Below are positions 8,576-49,875 of a stretch of DNA of 55,583 nt, in pieces (within the stretch, counting starts at the first letter, position 1; every line of letters starts with the position of its first letter). The DNA comes from a virus: positions 1 to 55,583 of the IMG/VR virus record IMGVR_UViG_3300028197_000011. One strand, 5' to 3'. The translations under genes were made by a program, and so were the position numbers. The notes under the pieces are model-generated. The model was not told the origin of the DNA, did not search any database, and was given only the letters and a program-made list of their open reading frames with translations.

Positions 8576-8588
8576 TAAAGGAAAAGAT

Positions 8589-34178: not shown

Positions 34179-34203
34179 AAAGAGGGGGCATTTCTGCCCC
34201 CTC
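34177..34203 (-). terminator. Rho-independent terminator of the minus-strand operon
   Basis: A perfect 9-bp stem (GAGGGGGCA with TGCCCCCTC, 34182-34203) closes a 4-base loop. Read on the minus strand the loop is GAAA, a GNRA tetraloop, and the stem is followed by TTTTT (34177-34181). Read on the plus strand there is no U-tract after the stem. It therefore suits the replication operon arriving from the right, while it could still protect the 3' end of plus-strand messages. Confidence 0.85.
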
Positions 34204-34206
34204 GTA

Positions 34207-34260
34207 ATAGAGATAACAATCTGAATCTAGAATAAACTAGTTAATGTTTTAAATCTCTAT
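34207..34260 (-). ncRNA. Structured element copy C (novel repeat family)
   Basis: Coordinates are on the plus strand. Outer stem P1 is ATAGAGAT (34207-34214) with ATCTCTAT (34253-34260), 8 bp. Stem P2 is AACA (34215-34218) with TGTT (34245-34248). The inner hairpin is CTAG-AATAAA-CTAG (34227-34240). The 38 bases inside P1 have the same internal spacing as the copies at 47306 and 47366, while P1 and P2 differ in sequence but stay paired. It lies in the 3' region of the minus-strand operon, three bases before the terminator stem. The minus strand is given because that operon is transcribed across it. Function is unknown. Confidence 0.7.
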
Positions 34261-34287
34261 GTTTAAACTAGGTTATGATGCGAACCT

Positions 34288-34620
34288 CTATTCCATAGCC
34301 TTGGTCTTTGGGTTCCACTTGAGCCAGCCATTATCTGGTAGCCATGTGTCGCCATCCTTACGCTTGGGAAACAGACCTCCACCCTTCTTCATAGAGCCAA
34401 AAGCAAGTTTGGCCCCACAGTCTGCACATCGTAGTTCATAGTATTCATTTTCGTCCACAGTTCTAACTACAAATCTTAGGTTCTCAGAACCACACTTTCC
34501 ACATTTACTTTCTTCAAAGACTTCTTGAAATCTTGAGATTTGAGTAAACACTTCTCTGTGCGTATCTGCTTCAAACTCTGCTGTAATCCTGTTATTTGCT
34601 GTTGTATAGTTTAGCTTCAT
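34288..34620 (-). CDS. Zinc-ribbon protein
   Basis: The 110-residue protein starts at ATG 34620, one base after the upstream gene's stop, with GGAG five bases ahead; a longer frame upstream is not needed. Two CxxC pairs (CGKCGSENLRF and, 19 residues on, RCADCGAKLAFG) form a zinc ribbon. The C-terminus is basic and Trp-rich (DNGWLKWNPKTKAME). Such small phage proteins often bind nucleic acid or polymerase. It is the last gene of the minus-strand operon, next to a gene that may act in recombination. Partner and role cannot be read from the sequence. Confidence 0.7.
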   Translation of the reverse strand: MKLNYTTANNRITAEFEADTHREVFTQISRFQEVFEESKCGKCGSENLRFVVRTVDENEYYELRCADCGAKLAFGSMKKGGGLFPKRKDGDTWLPDNGWLKWNPKTKAME

Positions 34621-34621
34621 C

Positions 34622-35377
34622 TTATCTCCACTCTTGATTATATCCAGTAATTTCACTTGGAATAGTACTCTTGTCACGTTGATATTCATTGAGACGATCA
34701 ATGATTTCGCTGGCGACCTTCTTTGAAATTTTACGATTATTATCTACTTTAAATATATCTTTTAGTAGTTTTGCTCCATCTATATTTAACTGTTTACATT
34801 TAATGTCTATAAAGTTATATTGCGCATCACTCATCCTTGCGGATTCATCAAATTCCCCAGCGCTGCTACTATTTTGCTTGGATAGATCGCGTACAATTTT
34901 TGCAGTATCTTTCTTTGTTAACTCTTCTGCTGCTACACCCTTGATCTTTAGAACTTTTCGTAAAGCTCTAGCTTCTGCTCTTGTGCTAGCAATCGCAACG
35001 GCGAAAGCGCAGAACATGTCATCTGTGTTTCCCTCCCAAGAGTCTGCTACTTCTGAGCATCTTAAACCATTAACAAATTCTATCGTAAAAATAACAGTTG
35101 CTCTACCGTGATGGTCGTCTCTATCTGTAGGCTTTACCCACGTTGGACCACTAAACGACATCGGCCCCAGAACAATTTCAGAAACCCTCCTAAGACCAGT
35201 TACGAGAGGATGACCATTCATTAGCTCATCTTCCTGAAACAAGGTCATAGCGTAATCATGCCACTCTGGTGACAACATAGAAGGAGCATCTTCAAGTACC
35301 ACGTTTTTCACTGATGTGTCAGTATTTGATGGCGTATCTAATGATTCCATACCATCAAACAAATTCTCTTCATTCAT
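34622..35377 (-). CDS. Unrecognised protein, possibly a single-strand annealing protein
   Basis: The 251-residue start at ATG 35377 is preferred because AGGAT precedes it; an ATG four codons earlier (35389) overlaps the previous stop and could also serve. The middle contains a beta-rich segment (RATVIFTIEFVNGLRCSEVAD) followed by a helix STRAEARALRKVLKIKG. That order (beta sheet, then a TRAEARALR-type helix) recalls Rad52/Sak-type annealing proteins, but the resemblance is weak. The C-terminal helical part (SDAQYNFIDIKCKQLNI) resembles tails found on phage recombination proteins. The zinc-ribbon gene follows directly. The function is a guess. Confidence 0.6.
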   Translation of the reverse strand: MNEENLFDGMESLDTPSNTDTSVKNVVLEDAPSMLSPEWHDYAMTLFQEDELMNGHPLVTGLRRVSEIVLGPMSFSGPTWVKPTDRDDHHGRATVIFTIEFVNGLRCSEVADSWEGNTDDMFCAFAVAIASTRAEARALRKVLKIKGVAAEELTKKDTAKIVRDLSKQNSSSAGEFDESARMSDAQYNFIDIKCKQLNIDGAKLLKDIFKVDNNRKISKKVASEIIDRLNEYQRDKSTIPSEITGYNQEWR

Positions 35378-35385
35378 ATTTATCC

Positions 35386-36156
35386 TCATGCTTCTAGTTC
35401 AATATATCTACTGGATTTAGATGGAAATACTTTTTCCATACCGTGTAACAAATCAATCAACTTGTTCTTCAACTCTTCCTGCGCACTTAAGCACACAGAA
35501 TCTGAAAGGTGCTTTACTCTTATTATAGCAAATCCTTTGCTTAAAATCAACCCCGTCTTGTTAGAATCTGCTTTAATTTGTTTCCTAAGTTTTTCTTCCC
35601 CCCAAATTGGCAAAAAATGCGAAGGACCATCTACTTCTATAATACATTTTATCTTTGGTAAGTATAGATCTATTTCAAGATTTTCGTTTGGTATTAAATT
35701 CTTTTTGTGTTTTTGTATATTCAATCCTGTTCTAGATAGCTCTTCGTACAAAAACCTCTCTAGTTTAGAACCTTCTTTTCCAGCTTTCTGTATAGCTTTA
35801 ATTGCTAGACTTTGCATATTCTGTTTATCTTGAGCTGTCATATTTGACCATCTTACTTTAGCTTGTTTAACATGTTTATTATATTCTTCATCACTTATAT
35901 TATCCCAGTATTGTTTTAAAGAGCTACTTATTTTAAGTTTCTCTTCCTTACTTCTTTTTTTTCCTTGAGTTGGAATTTTAGCAATTCCTTTTTTGATTGC
36001 ATTCTTCTGCGCTGTACTTTTATCGTTAATCTGAACCCCGTTCTTTAATAAAATTCTTCTAATCTTATTGGGGTACGTATTTAAAAACTTGGCTATCTCG
36101 TATGTACTCATATTTTCTTTTTCGTACATGTTTACTATATCTGTTGTGTTTTTCAT
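35386..36156 (-). CDS. Homing-endonuclease-like protein with Vsr-like nuclease domain
   Basis: The 256-residue protein has an N-terminal helix-turn-helix (residues about 10-45, YEIAKFLNTYPNKIRRIL), a NUMOD3-like stretch (GKKRSKEEKLKISSSL) and a C-terminal Vsr/DUF559-like nuclease domain. The last shows a LEIDLYLP strand, IIEVDGPSHF and a closing GFAIIRVKH strand. This order matches free-standing phage homing endonucleases of the EDxHD (Vsr-like) group, which cut DNA to spread their own gene. It overlaps the next gene by four bases (ATGA), so it sits snugly in the operon rather than in an intron. Activity and target are unknown. Confidence 0.75.
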   Translation of the reverse strand: MKNTTDIVNMYEKENMSTYEIAKFLNTYPNKIRRILLKNGVQINDKSTAQKNAIKKGIAKIPTQGKKRSKEEKLKISSSLKQYWDNISDEEYNKHVKQAKVRWSNMTAQDKQNMQSLAIKAIQKAGKEGSKLERFLYEELSRTGLNIQKHKKNLIPNENLEIDLYLPKIKCIIEVDGPSHFLPIWGEEKLRKQIKADSNKTGLILSKGFAIIRVKHLSDSVCLSAQEELKNKLIDLLHGMEKVFPSKSSRYIELEA

Positions 36157-36595: not shown

Positions 36596-37348
36596 CTATA
36601 TAAAGTGATTCTCTTGTTCCAAGCATAATGATACATAGAAATAAAATCTTTCTAATGCGTGTGACATATCTCCATCTGGTCTATAGTGAGATGGAAAAAA
36701 ATTTTCATGAATACACGAGTGCGCTAAAGACAAAACCCTTTTATCTATTAGAAACATAGTCCCCGACGTAAATTTAAAGTTAAGATTATCTCTTTTTATT
36801 AAGCCATGTTTTTCATACATTATATATTGAAGCTCTCTTAACCATATCAAAGTCTGCCTGCATAATACCACTAAGTGTTTTTGGTCAAATCTTAATACCT
36901 TGTCAAGATTAATTAACTCTTCTTCGCTCTTTAATGATTCTAGTCTTTTAGGATGCTTTGAAGATACTAGACCAGAAGTTTCATCGTTTATTAATGAGTT
37001 AACTTTTTTCTCTTGTTCTATCAGAGGGTCTACTATTTGATCAATCCATTCGAGCTTATCGTTGCTTTTATCATGAGCGTAAAAGACCCAATCCTTATTC
37101 TCTTTATTTGTTTTATAAGATGCAAAAAATCCATTTTGATCTGTACCTTTATTTGGAACGTATACAGTTTTTACATCACAAAAATTATCATGTGCAAAAT
37201 CTAGTATAGCATCATTAGACTCTGAATCATGTATTAATGAAATGTTTATACGTCCCTTCCAATAGGGGCTAAGTTTTTTTAATAAGTATAATGAAGAATC
37301 TTCATACCAGAGATGTAGATGGACTTCTATTTTTTCTTGATTTAACAT
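36596..37348 (-). CDS. RgpF/rhamnan-synthesis-F-like glycosyltransferase
   Basis: The 250-residue protein opens with VHLHLWYEDSSLYLLKKLSPY, followed by YVPNKGTDQNGFFASY and WVFYAHDKS, and later FTSGTMFLIDKRVL and DGDMSHALERFYFY. This series matches the RgpF family that builds rhamnose-containing polysaccharides (the family form is roughly PNRGRDIGPFL, then HDKKS, then GTMFW and HALERL). It starts on an ATG sharing one base with the previous stop, without a clear ribosome binding site, so coupled translation is likely. Acceptor and sugar are unknown. Confidence 0.75.
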   Translation of the reverse strand: MLNQEKIEVHLHLWYEDSSLYLLKKLSPYWKGRINISLIHDSESNDAILDFAHDNFCDVKTVYVPNKGTDQNGFFASYKTNKENKDWVFYAHDKSNDKLEWIDQIVDPLIEQEKKVNSLINDETSGLVSSKHPKRLESLKSEEELINLDKVLRFDQKHLVVLCRQTLIWLRELQYIMYEKHGLIKRDNLNFKFTSGTMFLIDKRVLSLAHSCIHENFFPSHYRPDGDMSHALERFYFYVSLCLEQENHFI

Positions 37349-38199
37349 TAAATTTTTTGTGGTAATTGTGATAAAATAGTTTTTACTCTATTAATATTCG
37401 TGTGCTTGTCTTTAGTGTTCTTCTTTAGTTTTGAGAAGTCTTGTATCTTATTTTTATTGTTATAGTCTAAACTTTCTTCTATTTTAAAAATCTTTTTAAT
37501 CATATCGTCTATTTTTTCTGCTTTATTTTCAGAATAAAAGTAAACTTTATCACAGTAGATTATGGATTGAAAAAAGAATTCGTCTAAACCATCGTCTAAA
37601 TTTGTAAATAATACTTGATTATAATTTTGAATTAGATTTGCATAGTGAAATCCAGCAGGAACTTTTAAATCTCCGAGACCTTCAGTGGGAAATATATGAT
37701 AATGATCTTCATTTATTTTAATATCTAATTTATCTAGACTTTCTTGACCTTCAGTCACTATTAAGGTGTCAAATTTTTTAGACCACTTCTTCGACTCGTC
37801 TAACAGTCCCAGCTCAACAGCTGGCAACAAAGGGATAGCATTATCTGGCATAAATAAAACTTCTTTGTTCACAGTTTTATTGTAAAATACTCTATGATTT
37901 ATATTCATATTCTTTAAAGCTTCAAACGTATTTTTAGAAGAACCATATTTAGCTCCATCGTTACATATAAAAAGTGGTATATTTTTTTCTGAGTCCTGAA
38001 TATAGCAAACTGTATCTCTTGATAGTGTTTCACAATGGGTAATGTAAGCATCTGGGTTAAATGAGTCTAGCATTTCAAACATTGTTTGAGAAAAATCGTT
38101 AAGTAATACCTGATGATCTCCAACTTCTTGAAGTCCTCTAGCTAAATACTCAGGTTGAGAAATTGAATCTGTAGAATATTTATCAATTACTAACTTCAT
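37348..38199 (-). CDS. Probable GT-B-like protein of the glycan cluster
   Basis: The 283-residue protein has AGGAG five bases before its ATG and overlaps the upstream gene by 17 bases. The sequence is alpha/beta (MKLVIDKYSTDSISQPEYLARGL, DAYITHCETL, IPLFICNDGAKYGSS, FDTLIVTEGQES) and ends with a stretch like the second half of GT-B enzymes (QVLFTNLDDGLDEFFFQSIIYCDKVYF), followed by a Lys/Asn-rich tail. No catalytic signature is clear. The glycosyltransferase call rests on fold pattern and neighbours. Confidence 0.5.
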   Translation of the reverse strand: MKLVIDKYSTDSISQPEYLARGLQEVGDHQVLLNDFSQTMFEMLDSFNPDAYITHCETLSRDTVCYIQDSEKNIPLFICNDGAKYGSSKNTFEALKNMNINHRVFYNKTVNKEVLFMPDNAIPLLPAVELGLLDESKKWSKKFDTLIVTEGQESLDKLDIKINEDHYHIFPTEGLGDLKVPAGFHYANLIQNYNQVLFTNLDDGLDEFFFQSIIYCDKVYFYSENKAEKIDDMIKKIFKIEESLDYNNKNKIQDFSKLKKNTKDKHTNINRVKTILSQLPQKI

Positions 38200-38935
38200 A
38201 CTTACTCCTAACCTTATTATATGTCTTAATGTTCTTAATTTTCATTATAGTTCCTGTATTTGATTTTGGCTTAATGTTATGTTTATTTGTTATCTTGTTC
38301 ACTGCTTCAAATAAAAACTTCTTTCTAAAAGATTTATCACTAAGTATTTTTTCTAAATCTAGTATAGTTTCTTTTCCATTAAAAAAAATGATTTCAGACC
38401 AAGGCTGACTTGCTCCGTAGCAGAAAAATTCTACAGAGTCTTTGCTAGCATTAACTCCTATTTCCAAACTTTCATCTGAATACTCATTAAGTATTGCGAA
38501 TGAATTAGCAAAATCTAACCCAGTGAATACTTTTGGCTCAAACAATAAGCTACCATCTATGAATAATATCTTATCATTAAATGTATTGTGCAGGCATAGC
38601 CTAGCACTCTCACATGAATTTGTATTTTCGTAGTCTTTGTTTTCTACAATTCTTATGGTATTGTCTTTATACTTATTCATAATGTAACTATAAACTGCGC
38701 TTGTAGAACTACCTACAGATATAATAAGTTCATAGTTAGTAAATTTTTTATTTATCGCATTTATTTGTTTGTCTATTAATTTTTGTTCTCCAACATCTAT
38801 AAAAAGTGTAGGGCTGTGTCGTTTCATTCTGTTTATAGTCTGATCGTGAAGAAGAACTATAGTAATAAATTCTTCATACTTTCTAGGTCGTCTTTTAACA
38901 GGTTGTTTTTTATTCTTCTTAGCAGATGATCTCAT
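38183..38935 (-). CDS. Sugar/choline-phosphate-type nucleotidyltransferase
   Basis: The 250-residue protein has a very basic N-terminus, then the pattern of small NTP transferases: KLIDKQINAINKKF, YELIISVGSSTSAVYSYIMNKY, IRIVENKDYENTNSCESARL and KILFIDGSLLF. In this superfamily the VxNxxYxxTN block and the following aspartate strand form the nucleotide site. The usual N-terminal glycine-rich G-x-G-x-R loop is not obvious, so activity may be altered. Such enzymes charge a sugar or choline with CTP or UTP for transfer. It overlaps the upstream gene by four bases and sits inside the glycan cluster. Confidence 0.65.
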   Translation of the reverse strand: MRSSAKKNKKQPVKRRPRKYEEFITIVLLHDQTINRMKRHSPTLFIDVGEQKLIDKQINAINKKFTNYELIISVGSSTSAVYSYIMNKYKDNTIRIVENKDYENTNSCESARLCLHNTFNDKILFIDGSLLFEPKVFTGLDFANSFAILNEYSDESLEIGVNASKDSVEFFCYGASQPWSEIIFFNGKETILDLEKILSDKSFRKKFLFEAVNKITNKHNIKPKSNTGTIMKIKNIKTYNKVRSKYEVSN

Positions 38936-39363
38936 GCTAACCTTACTCCATTAAATACAAGAAAATATTCTCTTTGTTCTATTTTTTCTATGTTTACATT
39001 TCTACGAGCCAACAACTTCTTAACCTCAGACAAAGCTATGATAGAATTGAGACTAGGCAAGAATTTGTTTAATTGTTCTAGTTGTAAATTTCCAGACGTA
39101 AAGTCAATACATACTCTTTCAAAGTCTGAGATGGAAACGTCAATAGTACCTTTAATCCTAATTTTTGAAATAGATTTATTCAATACCTCTAATGCGTCTT
39201 CTCCACCAATAAGTTGTAAAGCTTCTGATATAATAACTGCATTACAAGAAGATGTTGGCACAGCATCTAGTTCTTTCATGTAGGTTTCTTTGTTTTTTGT
39301 AATGTCTATGTTTGTAAATCCAGACATATGTTTTTTGTCGGAATATGTAATGTGTAGATTCAT
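38932..39363 (-). CDS. Truncated, SAM-methyltransferase-like protein
   Basis: The 143-residue protein resembles the second half of phage and bacterial class I methyltransferases. It starts MNLHITYSDKKHMSGFTNIDI where relatives have a glycine-rich NIGCG binding loop and GxxNID. It continues CNAVIISEALQLIG, matching the usual D-ISSHVLEHI, and GTIDVSISDFERVC, matching G-LxISVPD. The SAM-binding glycines are replaced, and SEALQLIG lacks the usual His-Val-Leu-Glu. It may be a dead or purely structural relative. Overlaps of four bases link it to both neighbours. Confidence 0.55.
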   Translation of the reverse strand: MNLHITYSDKKHMSGFTNIDITKNKETYMKELDAVPTSSCNAVIISEALQLIGGEDALEVLNKSISKIRIKGTIDVSISDFERVCIDFTSGNLQLEQLNKFLPSLNSIIALSEVKKLLARRNVNIEKIEQREYFLVFNGVRLA

Positions 39364-39857
39364 TTAAAATATCCTTTATATAAGCTTATAAGTAAATCAT
39401 TAAGTTGATTTGATTCAAATATGTTATTAACAACACAGAGTCCTTGTTTAATTTTCCAAGAATTTAATATTTTATCGGAAGTAAAGATATTCATATCACC
39501 AGCTAATTTATTTACTGCTGATTCAAATTTAGGAGTAATTTCTTGGGGAGGATGGGTAGTAAATACGCATAGTTTAGGTATATCAAAAATTTGAACTATA
39601 GAATCACTGACTTGATTTGTTACGTTGTCATTATCAAAACATATAAGAATGTCATAGCTAATATTAGACATGCCATCACCTTCTGGAAGTTCAAATATAT
39701 TATCTACCTCTCCTGAGTCTTCTATTTTTTCTACTGAAAAAAGATTATTTTTATTAATTAATAGCGCTGTTTCTTTTGTCAAGTGGCAACAAAATAAATT
39801 TAAAACTTCTTTTTGTTGAGACACAACGCTACGTAGCACTGATGAATTTCTATTCAT
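39360..39857 (-). CDS. Small Rossmann-like protein of the glycan cluster
   Basis: The 165-residue protein has AAGGAAAG about five bases before its ATG and overlaps the upstream glycosyltransferase gene by eight bases. The sequence alternates strands and helices (SYDILICFDNDNVTNQVSDSI, PKLCVFTTHPPQE, MNIFTSDKIL, GLCVVNNIF), like one half of a GT-B enzyme. No catalytic motif is visible. It may be an accessory or a remnant domain. Confidence 0.5.
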   Translation of the reverse strand: MNRNSSVLRSVVSQQKEVLNLFCCHLTKETALLINKNNLFSVEKIEDSGEVDNIFELPEGDGMSNISYDILICFDNDNVTNQVSDSIVQIFDIPKLCVFTTHPPQEITPKFESAVNKLAGDMNIFTSDKILNSWKIKQGLCVVNNIFESNQLNDLLISLYKGYFK

Positions 39858-40965
39858 TTAAACTTTCCTTAATCTTATTACCCACCGTATTGTAATTAAA
39901 CTTTTCCCCTAACATATAAGATTTTGTTTTATCTTTTTTATGCCTATTATTATAGTAATATCTCATTGCTTCAGAAACTTTCTTTTCACTGGGATGAAAC
40001 CAAAACTCTGAGCCAGTAAAAATATGATTGAATGCACCATCTTGTTGATTACAAATGTCGTATACTCCATCCACAAGAGTCCCTGACCACTTGTTGTCTG
40101 GGTCTATAAATGTTTTTGGTCCACCCTCATTGCTACATATGGGAGTATTACCAAAGCACATGGCTTCAAAAGATGGAATAGACCAAGCCTCTCCATAAGA
40201 TGGACTAACAAAGCAGTCGCACGAGTAGTGTAAAGATTGTATCTCTTCGTCTGTTACAGGGCTTGTAATAAATCTAATTGCTGGATAGTTCATAGAATCA
40301 TTGTAAAGTCTCATTTCTCGTTGAATATTTACGCACATATTTTGACATTGCTGGTCTAACTCCTCTGGGCCTATATTAAATTTGTTTAGTTTTAATACTA
40401 ATAAAGTATTATCTCTTGGAGAAAAAGTGTGATAATAGCTTCTTATTATGCTTTGTATGTTTTTTCTGTTAGTAACATCCCCTATAAAATAAAATTTAAA
40501 ACAACTTTGATGGCATCCAAAATCAATACTATTATATGATTCTTTATATTTTTCTGTGTTGAAAGTGTGATGTATTGTAGAGACTTTATTTTTTACAAAT
40601 TTTTCTGTATTTTCTTTTAACGTGTCGTTAGGAACCCAAACCTCGTCAACTAAATCCAAAGAACTGTGCCACATATTTTTCTTTGTGTGTATTGTTTCCG
40701 CTTCTAGATAAGCAATATTTTTCTTAAACAAAGAGCTACCTAATATGTGATGAGGCAGAACGTGCTGTATGCAATGCGTGACATCTTCTAAATTGTTTCT
40801 TTCTAGCTCTGTTATTCTGCTGGGTAAACTATAATCTTTATTAGTAAGCTTTATATCCCTACAAACTATTGGTACTCCCACACTATCTATAGCTAGTATA
40901 TGATCTATAGCAGAGTTGGCCCAACCGCTTGATTCTTTGTAATGTCCTATATATAATATTTTCAT
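39850..40965 (-). CDS. GT4-type glycosyltransferase
   Basis: The 371-residue protein has a GT-B layout. The N-terminal domain begins MKILYIGHYKESSGWANSA and includes LDLVDEVWVPND. The C-terminal domain has CFKFYFIGDVTNRKNI, LLVLKLN, SCDCFVSPSYGEAWSIP and FEAMCFGNTPICSNEGG. The PSYGEAWSIPSFEAM block is the EX7E-type donor site of family GT4, with Glu residues in GEAW and FEAM. It transfers a sugar from an activated donor; sugar and acceptor are unknown. The start overlaps the upstream GT4 gene's stop by four bases. Confidence 0.85.
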   Translation of the reverse strand: MKILYIGHYKESSGWANSAIDHILAIDSVGVPIVCRDIKLTNKDYSLPSRITELERNNLEDVTHCIQHVLPHHILGSSLFKKNIAYLEAETIHTKKNMWHSSLDLVDEVWVPNDTLKENTEKFVKNKVSTIHHTFNTEKYKESYNSIDFGCHQSCFKFYFIGDVTNRKNIQSIIRSYYHTFSPRDNTLLVLKLNKFNIGPEELDQQCQNMCVNIQREMRLYNDSMNYPAIRFITSPVTDEEIQSLHYSCDCFVSPSYGEAWSIPSFEAMCFGNTPICSNEGGPKTFIDPDNKWSGTLVDGVYDICNQQDGAFNHIFTGSEFWFHPSEKKVSEAMRYYYNNRHKKDKTKSYMLGEKFNYNTVGNKIKESLNE

Positions 40966-42620
40966 TGTATGCCTAACCTATCCCCCCTCTTTTTTTCTAA
41001 TGCGTTCTCTATACTCCTCATTTGCTTTACATATCTATAAGCTATCTCGTAATTGAAAGCTGACTTTTGAATATTACCATCTGAAATCATAGAACTATCA
41101 TTCGCATAAGTTCCAGCAGTAGAAGACGTACTGAATCCATAAAGTAAATCTCTTTGTAATTTCTTGTGGAAATAACTATTTATCTTTTCTGGTTTACATA
41201 ATACATTAGATATTAGAAAGTGACTCATGTGATCTGTAGATGAAAAATTTTCTGGATTCAACATCGGGTGAGATTCTTTAATGTTTAAAGGAGATTTCCA
41301 AGTTAATTCTTCCGGCAATATTTCTACAGAATCAAAATACTTCTCCCAAACTGCCCCACTTTTATCCCACTGATAATGTTTCAAAAAGTTTTGCTTGATA
41401 TTAAATCCTACCTTATTTCTCATGGCTGATGGCTTACTTAAGAAATCAATAATTTTTTCACACGCTGATTCATTGTTGGGTACAGCCCTCATGCATCCTG
41501 TTTCCATCTCTTTATATAAGCTCTTTGTCTCAAGAATTATTCCTTCTAGTTTTCTTATAACACTTGTCATAGCTGAATAATCTATAGATGCTACCGGAAC
41601 TCCTCCAGCTGCTGCCTCTACTTGTGGTAGCCCAAACCCCTCTGAGTTAGCATATTGCACATACAAATCAAAACAATTTATAATTGTAGATAGATTTTCA
41701 TATGTAATTCCGTTCTGAACGTTGGACATAACAGCGTCTACTTCGTTCGTAAAAGGAGAAATAGTCCTTGGGCCTTGAAAGAAAGAGGCAAAGGGCTTGG
41801 AAGTTTTTTTACAAACATATGTAAACATAACATGAGAAGATAGCTTATGCTCCTGTAATAACTGTGGTAAATCCCACCCCATATCTGGATAACTGGTGTG
41901 GCAGTAAAGCAAATAATTTTCAGGATCTTCAACCTTGTCAAGCATCATTCTAAAAGTTTTAAATAAATCGGGATATAATTTTCTTCTTTGATTTCTCATT
42001 ACTGTGCCGAGTATTTTTTTATCTTCTGGTATATTCATATTTATTCTGCACTGAGTCTTGTCTTTTTCCACAGAGTAAGCAGGGTGTGCTGAAGGTGGTG
42101 CAGAACCTACAATATTAATAGAGTTAAAACTTTGTTTCTTTAGCAATTCAGATGCCCAATCAGAGTATGTTAGGCAAGCATCTGCTTTTTTGTAAGCTTC
42201 TATCCACTGGTGCGCTTGAGGTTCAGCGTCTACAGTGGGCATAATACACCATTTATAAAAGTTTCTGTATGGAGATCTCTCTTCAAATTCCATCATCCAG
42301 AAATCTCTAATATCACATACTATATCAGGCATAAAGTCTAAACAAGCATCGTGAAAGTAATATTCTCCAAACTGATTAGTGTATTGAGAATTGTATTTTC
42401 TTTTTTCATCTTCACTAGCTGTCTTTGTCAATGCAGCAGGATAATATTTCCAAGGAATTGATGCTGATCTTGGATCGTCAGCAGACCCGTAGGAAGACAA
42501 CTCAGCAATTTCATACTTACCAGTGTCAAGTAAGTAATTTAAGATTTCTCTAGAGTAGGTAGCGTATCCCGTATTAAGAAATGTCGCTTCCGTGCAAAAC
42601 AAAATTCTTTTTTTTCTCAT
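40962..42620 (-). CDS. GT4-type glycosyltransferase
   Basis: The 552-residue start at ATG 42620 is chosen because GGAG lies five bases ahead and ATGA overlaps the SSB stop; an in-frame TTG four codons earlier is weaker. The N-terminal domain starts RILFCTEATFLNTGYATYSRE, with the Gly-rich acceptor loop of GT-B enzymes. The C-terminal domain has ILGTVMRNQRRKLYPD, YLLYCHTSYPDMGWD and the donor site YANSEGFGLPQVEAAAGGVP (EGFGLPQVE, an EX7E motif). About 150 extra C-terminal residues follow. It adjoins SSB, which joins the glycan cluster to the replication genes in one operon. Confidence 0.88.
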   Translation of the reverse strand: MRKKRILFCTEATFLNTGYATYSREILNYLLDTGKYEIAELSSYGSADDPRSASIPWKYYPAALTKTASEDEKRKYNSQYTNQFGEYYFHDACLDFMPDIVCDIRDFWMMEFEERSPYRNFYKWCIMPTVDAEPQAHQWIEAYKKADACLTYSDWASELLKKQSFNSINIVGSAPPSAHPAYSVEKDKTQCRINMNIPEDKKILGTVMRNQRRKLYPDLFKTFRMMLDKVEDPENYLLYCHTSYPDMGWDLPQLLQEHKLSSHVMFTYVCKKTSKPFASFFQGPRTISPFTNEVDAVMSNVQNGITYENLSTIINCFDLYVQYANSEGFGLPQVEAAAGGVPVASIDYSAMTSVIRKLEGIILETKSLYKEMETGCMRAVPNNESACEKIIDFLSKPSAMRNKVGFNIKQNFLKHYQWDKSGAVWEKYFDSVEILPEELTWKSPLNIKESHPMLNPENFSSTDHMSHFLISNVLCKPEKINSYFHKKLQRDLLYGFSTSSTAGTYANDSSMISDGNIQKSAFNYEIAYRYVKQMRSIENALEKKRGDRLGIQ

Positions 42621-42946
42621 GACCACTCCCAATCCTCAAAGTCTGAGTCCTGACAAATATCAAATTCATTAACCCTAAAAATTATAGAATCATTATCCTT
42701 AGAAAGATTTTTTGCAGAAGCCTGTATGGATATTTTAGTACCTTTTTTTGCAAATTTTTCTATGGTCTCTGCGCCAGTGTGCCAAGCTTCGCAGTAGATG
42801 TGTGTTGGTATTCTACTCTTCTCTCCTGTACTTTTCGTTCTCCTGTAATTATATACTACTACCACAAATTCTGCTAGAAGTACACTACCAACGTGAGATG
42901 TTTTTGGGTTTTCTATAAGATACCCAGTAAAACAACAATTATTCAT
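42617..42946 (-). CDS. ssb: Single-stranded DNA-binding protein
   Basis: The 109-residue protein has AGGAG upstream of its ATG. The OB-fold pattern of bacterial-type SSB is visible: MNNCCFTGYLIENPKT, then LLAEFVVVVYNYRRT, IPTHIYCEAWHTGAETIEKF, KKGTKISIQASAKN and IIFRVNEFDIC. The C-terminal tip is acidic and aromatic (DSDFEDWEWS). In bacterial SSB such an acidic tail recruits replication partners, so a partner-binding role is inferred. It coats single strands at the phage fork and follows the polymerase genes directly. Confidence 0.85.
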   Translation of the reverse strand: MNNCCFTGYLIENPKTSHVGSVLLAEFVVVVYNYRRTKSTGEKSRIPTHIYCEAWHTGAETIEKFAKKGTKISIQASAKNLSKDNDSIIFRVNEFDICQDSDFEDWEWS

Positions 42947-42993: not shown

Positions 42994-44559
42994 TTAAATT
43001 TCGTGAATTTTATCTACGATAAAGGAAGTGTCATTTTTATTAACGGAACCACAAAATATAAGATTATTTCCTTCATATAATATATATTTATATTTACGCT
43101 TAACACTGGGGAAAATAATTACGCTATCAAGTAAACATGTATCATCTTCTATTGTTAAGAAAGACATAGCCTGACCCTTTGAATCACCTTTAGTTATGGT
43201 ATAGTCAGACATTCTTTGTATGTTTGCGCCAACGCAGATATTCTTTCCTTTCTTTCCGTTTAAGATCTGCTTACAAGTAGTATTAGAGGCTGATGTATCT
43301 GACATTTCTACCCGAGTCATAGTAACGGGACAACCTAAGAATCTAGTTTCTTGATCTATTATCCATCCGGCATCATCATCTAAGTCGTAGGGTGGATCTA
43401 TTAAGAGCTGTATCTCGTTTTCAACAATTTGTTTTCTCTCTACCTTGCTGGTTCCACCGCCCTCTTTCTTTGTTGGAGCTAGGCCGGACAAGCAGTCTAT
43501 AAAGTTCTTCCATTTATATGTGGAATAGTTTTTGTGTAACCAAGCTTGCTCTGCTTTGGTTAAACTTCTGTATATTTCGTATTCGTATAAAGCCTTATTT
43601 CTGCTAATAGAACCATTAAAATCTCTAAAGAATCCAATAGATGCCAATGCTTTGAATGCTGTAGAATTAACTTTAGTAGCAAAAAATAATAGTATCTCCA
43701 CCCAGCTAAACTGCTTTACTTTTTTACTAAGTTCTTTTTCGGATTCTAGCAAAGAAGATATTACTTTGTCCCCAGTTTTTCCTGTTAGTGATTTTATATC
43801 TTTTATTCCAAAGTAAATTTTACCTCTATTGACATTGAATTTTTCTTTATAGTTAATTATACTTGGAGTTCTTGCTTGAATGTCAAACAACTTAGCTTCA
43901 GAAATCAGTTCGTATATCTCTTGATGTGGATCTTGTTTTTCGTTTGCAAAATATAAGTAAGCTAGAAAAAATTCTTTCGTATTATGAGCTTTCTGATAAG
44001 CGCTCCAGTATGAACACACTGCGTAGGATATACTATGTGATTTGTTAAACGCATACCTTGCCGATGCTTGAATCCACCCAAATATTTGTTCTGCCTCTTC
44101 TTTATTTACAATCTTAACCCTTTTAGCTCCAGCAATAAACTTCTTTTTGACCTTAGCCATGAGGTCTGCTTTCTTCTTACCAATAGCTTTGCGTAACTCA
44201 TCTGCTTCTTCAAGATTAAAACCAGCTACTTTTTGAGCAATACGCATGGATTGTTCTTGATATACTAGCACTCCATATGTAGGCAGCAACACATCTTCCA
44301 ATGATTCGTGCAAGTATGTTACTTCTTCACGACCATGCTTACGATCAATAAAGTGTTGGGTCATAGACTTGCCGTCCACGAAAGCTTTTAGACATCCGGG
44401 GCGAATGATAGCAATTAATGCTGACAACTCTTCAATATTATTAGGTGCAAGTTTCTTAGACCATGATTTGCCAAGGTTGCTCTCTAGTTGAAACACACCC
44501 TTAGTTTTGCCTTCTGCAAATAATTTCCAAGTATCCTTGTCGTCATATTCATTTGACAT
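42994..44559 (-). CDS. dnaE: DNA polymerase III alpha subunit, C-terminal half
   Basis: This 521-residue polypeptide (ATG 44559, overlapping the exonuclease gene; a TTG six codons earlier is possible) continues the C-family polymerase exactly where the other gene ends. It opens with TKGVFQLESNLGKSW, then IRPGCLKAFVDG and FIDRKHGREEV, the usual sequence just after the third catalytic aspartate. YGVLVYQEQSM, GFNLEEADELRKAIGKK and ARYAFNKSHSISYAV belong to the fingers region, followed by helix-hairpin-helix and OB-fold parts (ANIQRMSDYTI, LLDSVIIFP). No catalytic aspartates of its own are expected. It must pair with the N-terminal product. No intein motif is present; the fingers site interrupted by the cyanobacterial DnaE split intein (before the FNKSHS motif) is intact here. 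Confidence 0.88.
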   Translation of the reverse strand: MSNEYDDKDTWKLFAEGKTKGVFQLESNLGKSWSKKLAPNNIEELSALIAIIRPGCLKAFVDGKSMTQHFIDRKHGREEVTYLHESLEDVLLPTYGVLVYQEQSMRIAQKVAGFNLEEADELRKAIGKKKADLMAKVKKKFIAGAKRVKIVNKEEAEQIFGWIQASARYAFNKSHSISYAVCSYWSAYQKAHNTKEFFLAYLYFANEKQDPHQEIYELISEAKLFDIQARTPSIINYKEKFNVNRGKIYFGIKDIKSLTGKTGDKVISSLLESEKELSKKVKQFSWVEILLFFATKVNSTAFKALASIGFFRDFNGSISRNKALYEYEIYRSLTKAEQAWLHKNYSTYKWKNFIDCLSGLAPTKKEGGGTSKVERKQIVENEIQLLIDPPYDLDDDAGWIIDQETRFLGCPVTMTRVEMSDTSASNTTCKQILNGKKGKNICVGANIQRMSDYTITKGDSKGQAMSFLTIEDDTCLLDSVIIFPSVKRKYKYILYEGNNLIFCGSVNKNDTSFIVDKIHEI

Positions 44560-45229
44560 ACAAATTGCCGTCTGCAAACGCCTTATCTAGTTCAATGTTT
44601 TGGTAAACTGCACGATGAGTCTTAAGCAACTTTATAAATATATTAGCCGTATCTTTAACATCTTGCAATGCATCGTGAGCATTTTCTTTGCTCAGTCCCA
44701 TACGCTCCCTAAGAGTATCCATACTGATAGACCTAATGCTTGGATCACCCTCAGTCCACATGTGCATATTATCCATAACGTCACACTTGTGGATCTTACT
44801 AAAGATCTTTTGTTGCTGCCTAGCGTCATCAAAAGGTCCATATTCTTTACATAATCTATTAATAATAATCATATCAAAGCCAATAATATTAAAACCAACG
44901 GGGATAGGATTAAAGAATGGATCTTTTTTCCAATTATATTTATCCACAAAGGTGCAAAACTTTCTCCACACTGACTTAAGCGTTGGGGCTTTTGCCAAGT
45001 CTTTTCTATTTTTCCCCGTGACTTTTAATGCGCCCTCTTCTATAGGGTCAAGACCGGCAGCAATAGCCGCATCGTCATTTAGTATTGGTCTAATCTCACT
45101 ATTAAAAGATCCTTTCATAGCAAGGTTGCGACCGTCTAGTGCGATGGCAGCAATTTGAGTGGGTTGAGTATTATGAGGATTACGACTTCCTGTTTCAAAA
45201 TCAAATACAATAAAATCTCTGTTAGCCAT
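44549..45229 (-). CDS. DEDDh-family 3'-5' exonuclease (DnaQ/epsilon-like proofreading)
   Basis: The 226-residue protein has AAGGA before its ATG. Exo I is VFDFETGS (D10, E12), exo II is PVGFNIIGFDMIIINR, and exo III is NAHDALQDVKDTA, with the His and Asp of the DEDDh group. These residues bind two metal ions and remove mismatched 3' nucleotides. The gene lies between the two halves of the polymerase III alpha subunit, which strongly suggests it proofreads for that polymerase. Confidence 0.88.
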   Translation of the reverse strand: MANRDFIVFDFETGSRNPHNTQPTQIAAIALDGRNLAMKGSFNSEIRPILNDDAAIAAGLDPIEEGALKVTGKNRKDLAKAPTLKSVWRKFCTFVDKYNWKKDPFFNPIPVGFNIIGFDMIIINRLCKEYGPFDDARQQQKIFSKIHKCDVMDNMHMWTEGDPSIRSISMDTLRERMGLSKENAHDALQDVKDTANIFIKLLKTHRAVYQNIELDKAFADGNLYVK

Positions 45230-45231
45230 TG

Positions 45232-45723
45232 TTAGTCCTTCTTTTCTAGTTTTTCTAGTTCATTAATGCTTAAATTATAGCAGTCTGCTTTAACCTTAAA
45301 ATTATTACTTGGGTCTATCTCGCCTTTCTTGAGTTTTCTGGCTTGCTTAAAATACTCAGCCTTGTCCTTTTGTCCTAATACCCACGCTTTAACAGGTCTA
45401 TCACCTTGAAATTGTACTCTTACAAAAAAGTAAATATCACATCTTTGTTTTGTATTATAAGCAGCTACTGAACAGTCATAGTTTGGTTTAGGAGGACTTG
45501 TGCATCGCTTGGTTTTTACATCATATGTTTTACCATCACTTACAATGTCAAAATCATAAGTATTGGCTTTAACTCCACCCAGATAATCCAAAGCTATCAA
45601 CTCTCCCACAAAACCAGCAACGTTACCTTCACCTTTGGTTATAGAATTTTTAAGCTTGCCTAAATCTCTAGCCATGCTTCTGGCTTTAACTCTCATATAA
45701 TCTGTAACTTTAACTTCTATCAT
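45232..45723 (-). CDS. PD-(D/E)XK-like nuclease between polymerase halves
   Basis: The 163-residue protein shows a restriction-endonuclease-fold core: GFVGELIALDYLGG (with a conserved Glu), NTYDFDIVSDGKTYDVKTKR (the D...D-x-K strand pair) and CDIYFFVRVQF. Its ATG, with AAGGA upstream, lies inside the last 14 bases of the polymerase N-terminal gene. It may have inserted as a homing-type nuclease that split the polymerase gene, or it may act in replication or host DNA breakdown. Which is not decided by the sequence. Confidence 0.7.
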   Translation of the reverse strand: MIEVKVTDYMRVKARSMARDLGKLKNSITKGEGNVAGFVGELIALDYLGGVKANTYDFDIVSDGKTYDVKTKRCTSPPKPNYDCSVAAYNTKQRCDIYFFVRVQFQGDRPVKAWVLGQKDKAEYFKQARKLKKGEIDPSNNFKVKADCYNLSINELEKLEKKD

Positions 45724-47281
45724 TAGTCAATTCCTTAATTTTCATTAGCTTGTCTAGTAGATTAATTCCTAGAACGTCAAATTTTACATGACCTAGCGCT
45801 TCTAGATCAGTCATCTCTAATCCTGCTATCTTTTCTTCTGCGCCTTTCTGTGTTACCATTGGACACACGTTTTTTAATTTATCTTTAGATATTACAACGC
45901 CAGCAGCGTGTTTGCCCTGAGTTTTAAACGTGCCTTCAATATCTATTGCCTGCTTGAAGTATTCAGCATAATCTCCCTCAAGCTTTCCCTCGTCTGTTAT
46001 GTGACAAAAATCTCTTAAGTCATCAGAGCGATTCAATAGTGACCATCTAATGATTGACCTGTCTTCGTCTTCCATGTCTGCAAGTTGATCTGATATGTCT
46101 GCCTCGTTTGGTATGCTCTTTGTTATAGCATTCATCTCACTAAAAGAACAAGCCTCATTTATACGAAGCACTTCTTTTATTGCGCTGCGTCCTTGGAGTC
46201 TGCCAAATGTAATCATCTGGCTAACATGTTCATTTCCATAAGTTGCTTTTAGATAATCTATAACATCGTCTCGACGCTTACCGGGAACGTCCATGTCAAT
46301 ATCTGGTAGAGAAACGTGACCGCCCGTATTACGACCAGCATTATAAAATCTTTCAAACAACAGATCGTGTTCTACCGGATCTATCTTGGTAATACCTACT
46401 AGATATGATATTAAACATCCAGCAGCAGAACCTCTGCCGGGACCAGCTAGACATCCCATATCTTTTTCTATATGTCTAATAATATCTTGAACAATTAAAA
46501 AATATCCAAACAGATCTGCATTTCTAATAACTTCTAATTCTTTGTGGAACCTGTCTCCGTATAGCTTTTGTTTATCTTTATCTTTTCCAACTTTTGGTTT
46601 TAATAATTCTGTGTATCCTTCACGCGCCATCTTTGTTAAGTAATCTTCTTGAGACATACCCTTGGGGCATACAAACTTTGGCAGCATGGGTGGATTTAAA
46701 ATTTCATATTCTTCACAATTTTCGTATACGTATTGTAGTTCTCTATCGGCCTTGCCTTCTACTATACATTTATTATCATTAATAAAGTAATCTAGAATAT
46801 CACTTTCTAATTCTTTTTTCCTAATCTTGTTTTGTATTTTAGGTAATGTTGTCTTGAGTGCGGAACATAATAAAACTCTATGTAATACTGCTTGTTCTTT
46901 CTTTGCGTAATATGATGGTTTAATATTATCATTAGACTTGCTGATTGCTATTAAATTGTTTTTGCTTATAATTTCTTTAGCAACTTCAGATACAATATTC
47001 CCACTGTCATCTGTAGAGGATACCATCTGTATAAGATCATACCAGCCATCTTTGTTCTTAGCGTACACTGTGGTATTGTCAAATGAGCAACCAATTATTG
47101 GCTTGATGCCAACTTTTTTGCAAGCTTGATGGAAAGATACTGCGCCTGATATAGATTTATAATCTGTAATTCCACAAGCTGGATAGTCATTATCAGAACA
47201 AATTTTTGCCAGTTCGTGTGGCTTAGAAAATCCTTTTAGCAAACTATAATGTGTAAAATTCTTCAATGGAAACCAATTCAA
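45710..47281 (-). CDS. dnaE: DNA polymerase III alpha subunit, N-terminal half (PHP and catalytic palm)
   Basis: The 523-residue protein starts with TTG at 47281, five bases after an exceptionally strong GAGGAGG; no ATG fits. It has a PHP domain (FTHYSLLKGFSKPHEL, ACGITDYKSISG, KPIIGCSF) whose first metal-binding histidines are replaced. The polymerase core follows: GYFLIVQDIIRH, AGPGRGSAAGCLISYLVG and LLFERFYNAGR. The catalytic aspartates are in LPDIDMDVPGK and VKFDVLGINLL. It ends 14 residues later, where ordinary alpha subunits continue. Together with the gene at 42994 it makes about 1044 residues, near normal length. Two structured elements lie directly upstream. Confidence 0.9.
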   Translation of the reverse strand: MNWFPLKNFTHYSLLKGFSKPHELAKICSDNDYPACGITDYKSISGAVSFHQACKKVGIKPIIGCSFDNTTVYAKNKDGWYDLIQMVSSTDDSGNIVSEVAKEIISKNNLIAISKSNDNIKPSYYAKKEQAVLHRVLLCSALKTTLPKIQNKIRKKELESDILDYFINDNKCIVEGKADRELQYVYENCEEYEILNPPMLPKFVCPKGMSQEDYLTKMAREGYTELLKPKVGKDKDKQKLYGDRFHKELEVIRNADLFGYFLIVQDIIRHIEKDMGCLAGPGRGSAAGCLISYLVGITKIDPVEHDLLFERFYNAGRNTGGHVSLPDIDMDVPGKRRDDVIDYLKATYGNEHVSQMITFGRLQGRSAIKEVLRINEACSFSEMNAITKSIPNEADISDQLADMEDEDRSIIRWSLLNRSDDLRDFCHITDEGKLEGDYAEYFKQAIDIEGTFKTQGKHAAGVVISKDKLKNVCPMVTQKGAEEKIAGLEMTDLEALGHVKFDVLGINLLDKLMKIKELTNDRS

Positions 47282-47286
47282 TCTTT

Positions 47287-47293
47287 CCTCCTC
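47287..47293 (-). promoter_or_regulatory. Strong ribosome binding site deciding a TTG start
   Basis: Minus-strand GAGGAGG lies five bases before TTG at 47281 and 12 bases after the end of structured element B. It is one of the strongest Shine-Dalgarno sequences in the window and it supports the non-ATG start of the polymerase gene. Confidence 0.75.
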
Positions 47294-47305
47294 AATTTAT
47301 AAGTT

Positions 47306-47357
47306 GCCAGATAGCAACCTGAATCTAGAATGAACTAGGTGATGCTTTGAATCTGGC
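47306..47357 (-). ncRNA. Structured element copy B (novel repeat family)
   Basis: Plus-strand reading: P1 is GCCAGAT (47306-47312) with ATCTGGC (47351-47357). P2 is AGCA (47313-47316) with TGCT (47343-47346). The inner hairpin is CTAG-AATGAA-CTAG (47325-47338). The inside is 38 bases, as in the other copies. On the minus-strand message it ends 12 bases before the polymerase ribosome binding site, so control of polymerase translation is a reasonable guess. Confidence 0.72.
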
Positions 47358-47365
47358 TTGTATTC

Positions 47366-47419
47366 TAACGGATGGTGTGTTGAAGCTAGACTAAACTAGT
47401 TAACAGCATGAATCCGTTA
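47366..47419 (-). ncRNA. Structured element copy A (novel repeat family)
   Basis: Plus-strand reading: P1 is TAACGGAT (47366-47373) with ATCCGTTA (47412-47419), 8 bp. P2 is GGTG (47374-47377) with CAGC (47404-47407), three pairs and one mismatch. The inner hairpin is CTAG-ACTAAA-CTAG (47386-47399). On the minus strand it begins immediately after the stop codon of the 33-codon reading frame and is eight bases from element B, so the two form a tandem. Confidence 0.72.
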
Positions 47420-47521
47420 TTATTTTGACGTTGCAGGCATGGGTCTGCGTATGGGTTCTTCCTGTTTTGGTCTATGCTCTCCGGGGCGTGTCAATGGAAA
47501 GCTCTTTACCTCTTCGCTCAT
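47420..47521 (-). CDS. Possible 33-residue protein, Pro/Arg-rich
   Basis: A short frame starts at ATG 47521 inside the end of the PAP2 gene, with AAAGGA eight bases upstream, and stops at 47420. The peptide begins MSEEVKSFPLTRPGEH and ends PMPATSK. It contains five Pro and many charged residues, with no membrane segment. The good ribosome binding site and the fit between PAP2 and element A support it; overlap of 50 bases with PAP2 and its small size are against it. Confidence 0.4.
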   Translation of the reverse strand: MSEEVKSFPLTRPGEHRPKQEEPIRRPMPATSK

Positions 47522-49020: not shown

Positions 49021-49875
49021 CTACAAAGTTTGTTTAATGGCAGCAGTAAGTAAAGAATCTATACTGCCGGGGGGAATTTTATTTTTAAAATGTTCGTAAG
49101 CACCTTTAATCATTTCATGTTCTGGATCTTGTGTAAGTTCTAGCCATCCTACAAAGTAATTCCATATTCTATCTTCTAATATTAATGGGTATTTTACTCC
49201 GCTAGGTCTATCGAATCTGTGAATCCATTTAAGTTCTGGCAAGCAGATAGTTCTACCACCAAATTGTCTAAACTTTTCATGTATATATCCTTCCTCCGCT
49301 CCAAATCCTTTAAATTTTTGATTAAATTTTACCCAGTTCTTTGTTTCGCAGGAGAATAATCCTAAACCCTGCATAGGTATGTCAAAGGGCTTTCCTTCTT
49401 TTAACTTCTGATGGTCTGTAGCCCACTTTCCATACATTCCCGATCCCCATCCCGGCGTAAAGTGCGTTGACGCAGCTTCGTGCTTAAGATGATCATATAT
49501 TAATGGTCCTTGTACTAGGTCTTTACAGTTTGGTTTATCTTTATAATAATCTAATAAGCTTTGTATGGCTCCGGGGAATAGCATAACATGCGAATCCATA
49601 GATATAGCGTATTTACCCTTAGCTTGTCTGAAAATCTCGTTTCTTACCGCTGTCCCTGTTTTAAAAGTATAAGGTATGTATGTTCCATTTGCGACCCAGT
49701 TCATATATTTTTCATTGGCTTTACCATGAGCTGAGTCTGGGTTGTTATCTATTAGTATTATTTCTACTTCTTCTGTATTACATATCGGGTGATACATTCT
49801 CAATGATTGAATAGAGAAATATACTCCATCATAATCATCGTATGTAGCCATGCCTATTGTTAGTTTTTTTTCCAT
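49021..49875 (-). CDS. GT27/GT2-like glycosyltransferase
   Basis: The 284-residue protein has a GT-A fold: MATYDDYDGVYFSIQSL at the N-terminus, VEIILIDNNPDS, then TGTAVRNEIFRQAKGKYAIS, a metal-binding DSHVML (D-x-H) and FKGFGAEEGYIHEKFRQFGG. D-x-H followed by a GAEEGYIHEKF block is the arrangement of polypeptide N-acetylgalactosaminyltransferases (GT27), where the GGE-D/N-xE loop carries the catalytic acid. It begins on an ATG sharing one base with the nuclease stop. Donor sugar and acceptor are unknown. It sits away from the main glycan cluster. Confidence 0.8.
   Translation of the reverse strand: MEKKLTIGMATYDDYDGVYFSIQSLRMYHPICNTEEVEIILIDNNPDSAHGKANEKYMNWVANGTYIPYTFKTGTAVRNEIFRQAKGKYAISMDSHVMLFPGAIQSLLDYYKDKPNCKDLVQGPLIYDHLKHEAASTHFTPGWGSGMYGKWATDHQKLKEGKPFDIPMQGLGLFSCETKNWVKFNQKFKGFGAEEGYIHEKFRQFGGRTICLPELKWIHRFDRPSGVKYPLILEDRIWNYFVGWLELTQDPEHEMIKGAYEHFKNKIPPGSIDSLLTAAIKQTL

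Follow-up and report, generated by a model that had tools for sequence, protein, structure and literature searches.

What is the role of the tandem pair of hairpin-like elements that precedes a phage DNA polymerase gene, and of the third copy that stands at the end of the same operon? The locus lies in the window, a 55.6-kb virus record that was analyzed over its whole length, and the features on which the question turns are the following.

47420..47521, minus strand: 33-aa ORF (MSEEVKSFPLTRPGEHRPKQEEPIRRPMPATSK), whose stop codon abuts A, 0 nt apart
47366..47419, minus strand: element A (54 nt), with P1 TAACGGAT/ATCCGTTA, UCAUGC, P2 TG/CA, UU, P3 AACTAG/CTAGCT and loop TTTAGT
47305..47358, minus strand: element B (54 nt), with P1 GCCAGAT/ATCTGGC, P2 CA/TG, P3 ACCTAG/CTAGAT and loop TTCATT
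47287-47293, minus strand: GAGGAGG, a strong ribosome-binding site after B, for the DnaE N-half gene
45710..47281, minus strand: DnaE N-terminal half gene (phrog_405 match, 2.1e-110)
34288..34701, minus strand: ORF for a zinc-ribbon protein, whose stop codon lies inside the half copy beside C
34261..34291, minus strand: truncated copy of 31 bases, 5' half ATAGAG GT TCGCAT CA TA ACCTAG TTTAAAC, directly upstream of C
34207..34260, minus strand: element C (54 nt), with P1 ATAGAGAT/ATCTCTAT, P2 CA/TG, P3 AACTAG/CTAGAT and loop TTTATT
34182..34203, minus strand: intrinsic terminator, GAGGGGGCAGAAATGCCCCCTC TTTTT, directly after C

The three elements reported in the first-pass annotation were confirmed at their coordinates as copies of one architecture, with an inside of exactly 38 bases in A, B and C; B begins 7 nt 3' of A. 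When the core pattern TGAAKCTAGAMTRAACTAGKTRA was searched with up to three mismatches, the window gave three matches, all of them A, B and C, against a chance expectation of 0.00 (100 shuffles), and the R2 covariance model scored them at 57.4, 55.4 and 59.5 bits, respectively. All three are minus-strand elements and share the orientation of the replication operon (DnaE, exonuclease, primase and helicase), at whose end C is located. With the stop codon of the 33-aa ORF abutting A, the elements are tied no less to the gene upstream than to the polymerase gene, and a similar small ORF is found upstream of the element pair of another virus record, G023. The half copy beside C resembles in sequence the 5' half of the same-site copy in G023, and it is probably the remnant of a tandem array.

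Other genes of this record were also noted. The DNA polymerase III alpha subunit (DnaE) is split in two genes (42994-47281, minus strand), with the N-half corresponding to positions 244-617 and the C-half to positions 627-1067 of phrog_405, and with a small ORF and the exonuclease gene between them; relatives of the N-half occur as separate genes of similar length. Several glycosyltransferase-like genes and one for a rhamnan-synthesis-like protein lie inside the replication operon (36596-42632 and 49021-49875, minus strand), which also encodes a DUF559-like endonuclease-type protein (35386-36156, minus strand; weak match); in G031 a protein similar to it by eye is encoded directly after the element (L094, after 6698, plus strand). 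A 4625-aa ORF without assigned function (8457-22334, plus strand) adjoins a 2820-aa ORF (113-8575) that belongs to the same family as long ORFs of several carrier phages.

A tight first pattern derived from A, B and C was too narrow and gave no matches. Among 25 retrieved relatives of the polymerase N-half, two (L011 and L017) showed the same tandem pair before the polymerase gene, and further copies came from a pattern scan of viral contigs, in which loosening the P3 requirement brought in many lineages with quite different stems. The covariance model detected copies in 15 of 34 records, among them seven in one 120-kb contig, all on the same strand; copies often stand in tandem, in arrays of up to three to five model-detected copies. 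Seventy-three distinct copies were finally collected from phage contigs with a descriptor that tolerated up to two mismatches in the conserved letters and required at least 6 of 7 pairs in P1 and at least 5 of 6 in P3.

On the minus strand, these copies read in the order P1 (7-8 bp, often longer), UCANNN, P2 (2 bp), UY, P3 (6 bp), UUNANU, P3', UCANNN, P2', UY, P1'. The three helices flank two identical 6x2 internal loops (UCANNN opposite UY) in opposite orientation, and the UUNANU hexaloop caps P3. The middle is two-fold symmetric, since the string U-UCANNN-PP-UY-A occurs on each strand, which results in a head with pseudo-two-fold symmetry. It is the conserved unpaired bases that make up this symmetric head; the sequences of P1, P2 and P3 are free, with compensation, and the NNN positions vary without constraint. 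The unpaired letters that had been described as conserved are indeed so, but they read better on the minus strand (UUCANNN..UYA twice, and loop UUNANU) than in the plus-strand form first given, and the CTAG/CTAG hairpin that had been taken for a fixed feature is only one of the sequences taken by the 6-bp P3, which varies freely.

To support this fold there is extensive covariation. Because pairing in P1 and P3, but not in P2, entered into the choice of copies, the cleanest tests are P2 and a blind mutual-information scan, and in the latter, run on 51 diverse copies, the top 14 column pairs coincided exactly with the model's 14 variable pairs, both P2 pairs included, with nothing else near. 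In the same 51 copies, 93% of the pair counts were standard pairs, doubly changed cells numbered 295 versus 85 in shuffles, and the covariation score was 0.904 versus at most 0.18 for slid partners. Both P2 pairs form in 62 of the 73 copies, and a Watson-Crick pair 16-44 is present in all of the remaining 11. Of the 4-bp P2 proposed earlier, the inner 2 bp are real (columns 15-44 and 16-43), but the outer two are paired no more often than expected from shuffling (42% versus 41%, with 180 of 500 shuffles as high). The proposal of a selected folded RNA with compensatory change, for which a failure to find homologues with covarying P1 and P2 had been named as the refutation, was borne out by strong compensation across many copies with different stems. 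Taken together, these comparisons make it nearly certain that A, B and C represent one structured RNA of 54 nt.

As to the strand, the non-Watson-Crick cells of the stems comprise 47 G.U and 11 A.C on the sense strand under a filter that treats both alike, and this excess of G.U argues that the element folds as sense RNA. In agreement with the co-orientation with the operon noticed at the outset, the copies share the orientation of the upstream genes or RNA genes, except for a few doubtful small ORFs. Fold energies are about equal on both strands and often slightly better on the antisense, so energy alone is no guide to the strand. A reading of the plus strand as a K-turn (NNNUGA/RA) was set aside, given that the wobble count and the gene orientation favor the minus strand, and an RNA made from the sense strand is the simplest account. 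The same data bear on the proposal that the element is a DNA-level site (a cruciform or folded single-stranded DNA serving recombination, replication or mobility) with no role as RNA. Although the perfect inverted repeats, the tandem duplication and the patchy presence at orthologous sites would suit such a site, the co-orientation with transcription, a wobble bias pointing to one strand and the anchoring to the 3' ends of genes and RNA genes make it very unlikely, and we rank it last among the alternatives.

The distribution of the element was analyzed in cellular genomes as well. In 84,980 bacterial and archaeal genomes, a similar, slightly tighter pattern gave 62 matches, none of which had the stems, and the best covariance-model score among 52 of those loci was 31 bits, with a poor P1, nearly all viral copies scoring about 40-67 bits. 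The 62 stemless matches act as a natural negative control, and they suggest that the element occurs rarely, if at all, outside viruses, to which it would be apparently restricted. The carriers found here are uncultured phages only and include several distantly related genomes; at least two (G035 and G038) encode tmRNA. By blast, no named phage was found with the element or closely related to carriers; the named phages listed as matching the L158 region did so through its tRNA gene. The best matches listed for DnaE in an annotated phage collection were only about 27-35% identical, and the element was absent from the parts read of four records of that collection with similar DnaE. The search made for a protein family common to all carriers, several of which are fragments, revealed none. 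The presence of the element is patchy: about five changes, at least two of them forced, are required to explain the element-bearing rows of the polymerase tree, and close relatives at 87% identity are without it.

Tandem arrays, occurrence in viruses only and patchy gain and loss among close relatives would also be expected of a decoy RNA, for instance a mimic that titrates a host defense ribonuclease in the manner of type III antitoxin repeats. A decoy, however, would not need single copies tied to gene 3' ends in many operons, and neither a matching host array nor a toxin gene was seen. Type III toxin-antitoxin repeats are pseudoknot repeats upstream of a toxin gene; the mutual-information scan of 51 copies revealed no extra covariation of the pseudoknot type, and no toxin gene was noticed beside the arrays among their partly annotated neighbors. 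We consider a decoy quite improbable, and fourth in rank.

As to placement, the first element of an array has the stop of a same-strand ORF at a distance of -6 to +57 nt in 24 of 30 array sites, and in some of them this stop falls within P1. Other copies are found at borders of RNA genes: copies flank tRNA-Ile and tRNA-Lys (4 and 3 nt away), one lies 6 nt before tRNA-Leu, one array is upstream of tRNA-Arg and one copy follows a tmRNA by 11 nt; a copy flanking a tRNA lies at L102:10563-10616. Two tmRNA genes and a site at a manA RNA are located as follows.

L249, 2398-2760, and L263, 12686-13029: phage-encoded tmRNA genes, one of which ends 11 nt before an element
L255, 1076-1345: element 13 nt upstream of a manA RNA (RF01745), in a 42-kb phage contig

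As a separate observation, matches to the Glutamine-II (Downstream-peptide) riboswitch lie within about 300 nt of an element in L256 (7924-8300, also with a tRNA) and L257 (4850-5119). The downstream neighbors of the copies differ, and can be a ribosome-binding site, a tRNA, a terminator or a convergent gene. A few copies do not fit 3'-end anchoring: that of G030 starts where a promoter is predicted to initiate transcription, and that at G023:1869 lies within a long non-coding stretch. On the whole, what the copies have in common is the 3' end of an upstream RNA, or the border between two RNAs, as far as gene predictions define it, and not a downstream gene.

This result is at odds with a cis-regulatory leader (riboswitch-like or a translational operator) for the downstream gene, the role favored in the first-pass annotation for the polymerase gene. 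Some sites, A and B included, are mid-operon and just before a ribosome-binding site, an arrangement also compatible with a 5' role; from the end of the A and B pair, and of several other copies, it is 12-27 nt to a start codon served by a good ribosome-binding site, and the G030 copy begins at a predicted transcription start. Against a leader, the downstream genes are unrelated and the other copies follow quite different genes, sit between tRNA genes, or precede terminators that close an operon ahead of a convergent gene (C in the window, and G023, G008, G040 and G051), which leaves nothing downstream to regulate. Neither the constant 5' UTR position nor the coherent gene set of a riboswitch or leader class was found, and a leader is an unlikely explanation, the second of the alternatives. 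Of the guesses made at the outset, a protein-binding element is the one that survives as part of the best explanation. A replacement of a promoter at the polymerase site was dropped as well, since promoter scores with and without elements overlap.

Orthologous sites with and without the element were also compared. At the 3' end of the zinc-ribbon gene, the order is stop and then terminator in most of ten element-free relatives read, and stop, element, terminator in the window, G008, G023, G043 and G049. In the case of the polymerase N-half, the element follows the gene in G031 and the G043 group, and two precede it in the clade of the window. An intrinsic terminator stands close after the element at a minority of the array sites, most having none nearby, and none was found after A and B; an identity of the element with an intrinsic terminator was rejected on these grounds. 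An element that works in the nascent RNA, either on RNA polymerase as in put-like antitermination or by tuning the terminator downstream, would account for that minority and for G060 and G038, in which the element apparently tips a terminator-like stem (by eye). Nevertheless, most sites have no terminator nearby, antitermination makes little sense at the end of a convergent operon, and relatives retain the terminator without the element; we hold this third alternative to be improbable.

Because an RNA 3' end or an RNA border is common to the sites, we favor, tentatively and as the foremost of several readings, an element that works as a module of RNA-end punctuation, either for processing or for protection. 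The tandem copies, the addition of the module before existing terminators and the copies that isolate tRNAs all fit such punctuation. The comparisons show the fold, its strand, its placement and its apparent restriction to viruses, and it is the binding partner and the step of cleavage or protection that we infer. A factor, most likely encoded by the phage and probably dimeric because the head is symmetric, would bind the head, and once bound it would either direct cleavage between neighboring RNAs or block exonucleases at the 3' end of the upstream RNA; tandem copies would then be additive, as in other end-protecting arrays. The zinc-ribbon protein encoded next to C was rejected as this partner, since it is also present in element-free relatives. 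That the module acts as a 3' stabilizer or exonuclease-resistant RNA is a candidate reading, fitted by the position 3' of genes and by the tandem arrangement alone, and pyrimidine-A steps in the loops as cleavage sites are a speculation.

Alternatively, the RNA might do the cutting. A new small self-cleaving ribozyme that cuts at one or both of the symmetric UCA or UYA loops, separating genes and tRNAs, would be consistent with the small size, the invariant unpaired bases within freely varying helices, the tandem copies and the copies placed 3-4 nt from each of two tRNAs. However, no Rfam ribozyme family (the hammerhead and other known small ribozymes included) matched in the window and the carriers scanned, a conserved base that would mark a cleavage site is not seen outside the helices, and the element was not found in bacterial genomes, unlike known ribozyme classes, which occur there too. 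A ribozyme is an unlikely explanation, if the first of those ranked behind punctuation, ahead of the leader, antitermination, the decoy and the DNA site. In its fuller form the punctuation reading, in which a virus-specific, two-fold-symmetric head marks the ends of mRNA, tRNA and tmRNA and a phage factor or the ribozyme itself cuts or protects, is held still more tentatively. If the element does set RNA ends, it would show uncultured phages processing dense operons and tRNA clusters without host signals, and a compact module of 54 nt is amenable to direct in vitro work.

The comparison with Rfam suggested earlier was carried out, and no Rfam 15 family reached its gathering threshold for the elements in the window and the other carriers scanned; for A and B, only weak, low-scoring matches, e.g. 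to snoRNAs, appeared at E values up to 10. The papers searched, a coverage outside which most subscription journals fall, do not describe the element. It belongs to no tested family and represents a previously uncatalogued RNA family, one that is well supported, has an architecture of its own and is found at the 3' ends of genes and the borders of RNA genes. An integron attC site was rejected, because the freely varying P1 (GCCAGAT, CTTAGAGT, TCGGAAT and others) lacks a constant RYYYAAC/GTTRRRY pair, and because the sense strand is favored.

The element resembles several known structures, and its likeness to other RNA-end hairpins of phages and bacteria is by position only. Like flaviviral tandem exonuclease-resistant RNAs, it is a compact viral RNA placed in tandem at RNA ends, but it is from phages, its exonuclease block is putative, and any relation in sequence or structure would be conjectural. 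Each of its loops, read on the opposite strand, recalls a kink-turn of the box C/D type (NNNUGA/RA), but wobble bias and gene orientation assign the functional strand to the other one. The archaeal bulge-helix-bulge, seen at tRNA and rRNA processing sites, also presents two identical asymmetric bulges with two-fold symmetry around a short helix; it has, however, 3-nt bulges and a 4-bp center in place of 6x2 loops and 2 bp, and the tmRNA encoded by carriers G035 and G038 is a bacterial gene. The RNase III processing sites (R sites) of phage T7 are, like the element, irregular intergenic hairpins with internal loops in a phage operon, where they set mRNA ends. They depend on a long double-stranded stem rather than on any fixed motif, whereas the element has two symmetric loops, invariant bases, a fixed 38-nt inside and free helices, and such a conserved single-stranded motif would not be expected of a T7-type RNase III site. 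Finally, REP/BIME palindromes and other 3' stabilizing hairpins resemble the element in being tandem palindromes that follow closely on stop codons, in many cases near a terminator, and for which an additive effect of the copies is plausible. REP elements are bacterial chromosomal repeats with a conserved sequence; the element, in contrast, is found only in phages and combines variable, compensating stems with conserved unpaired bases.
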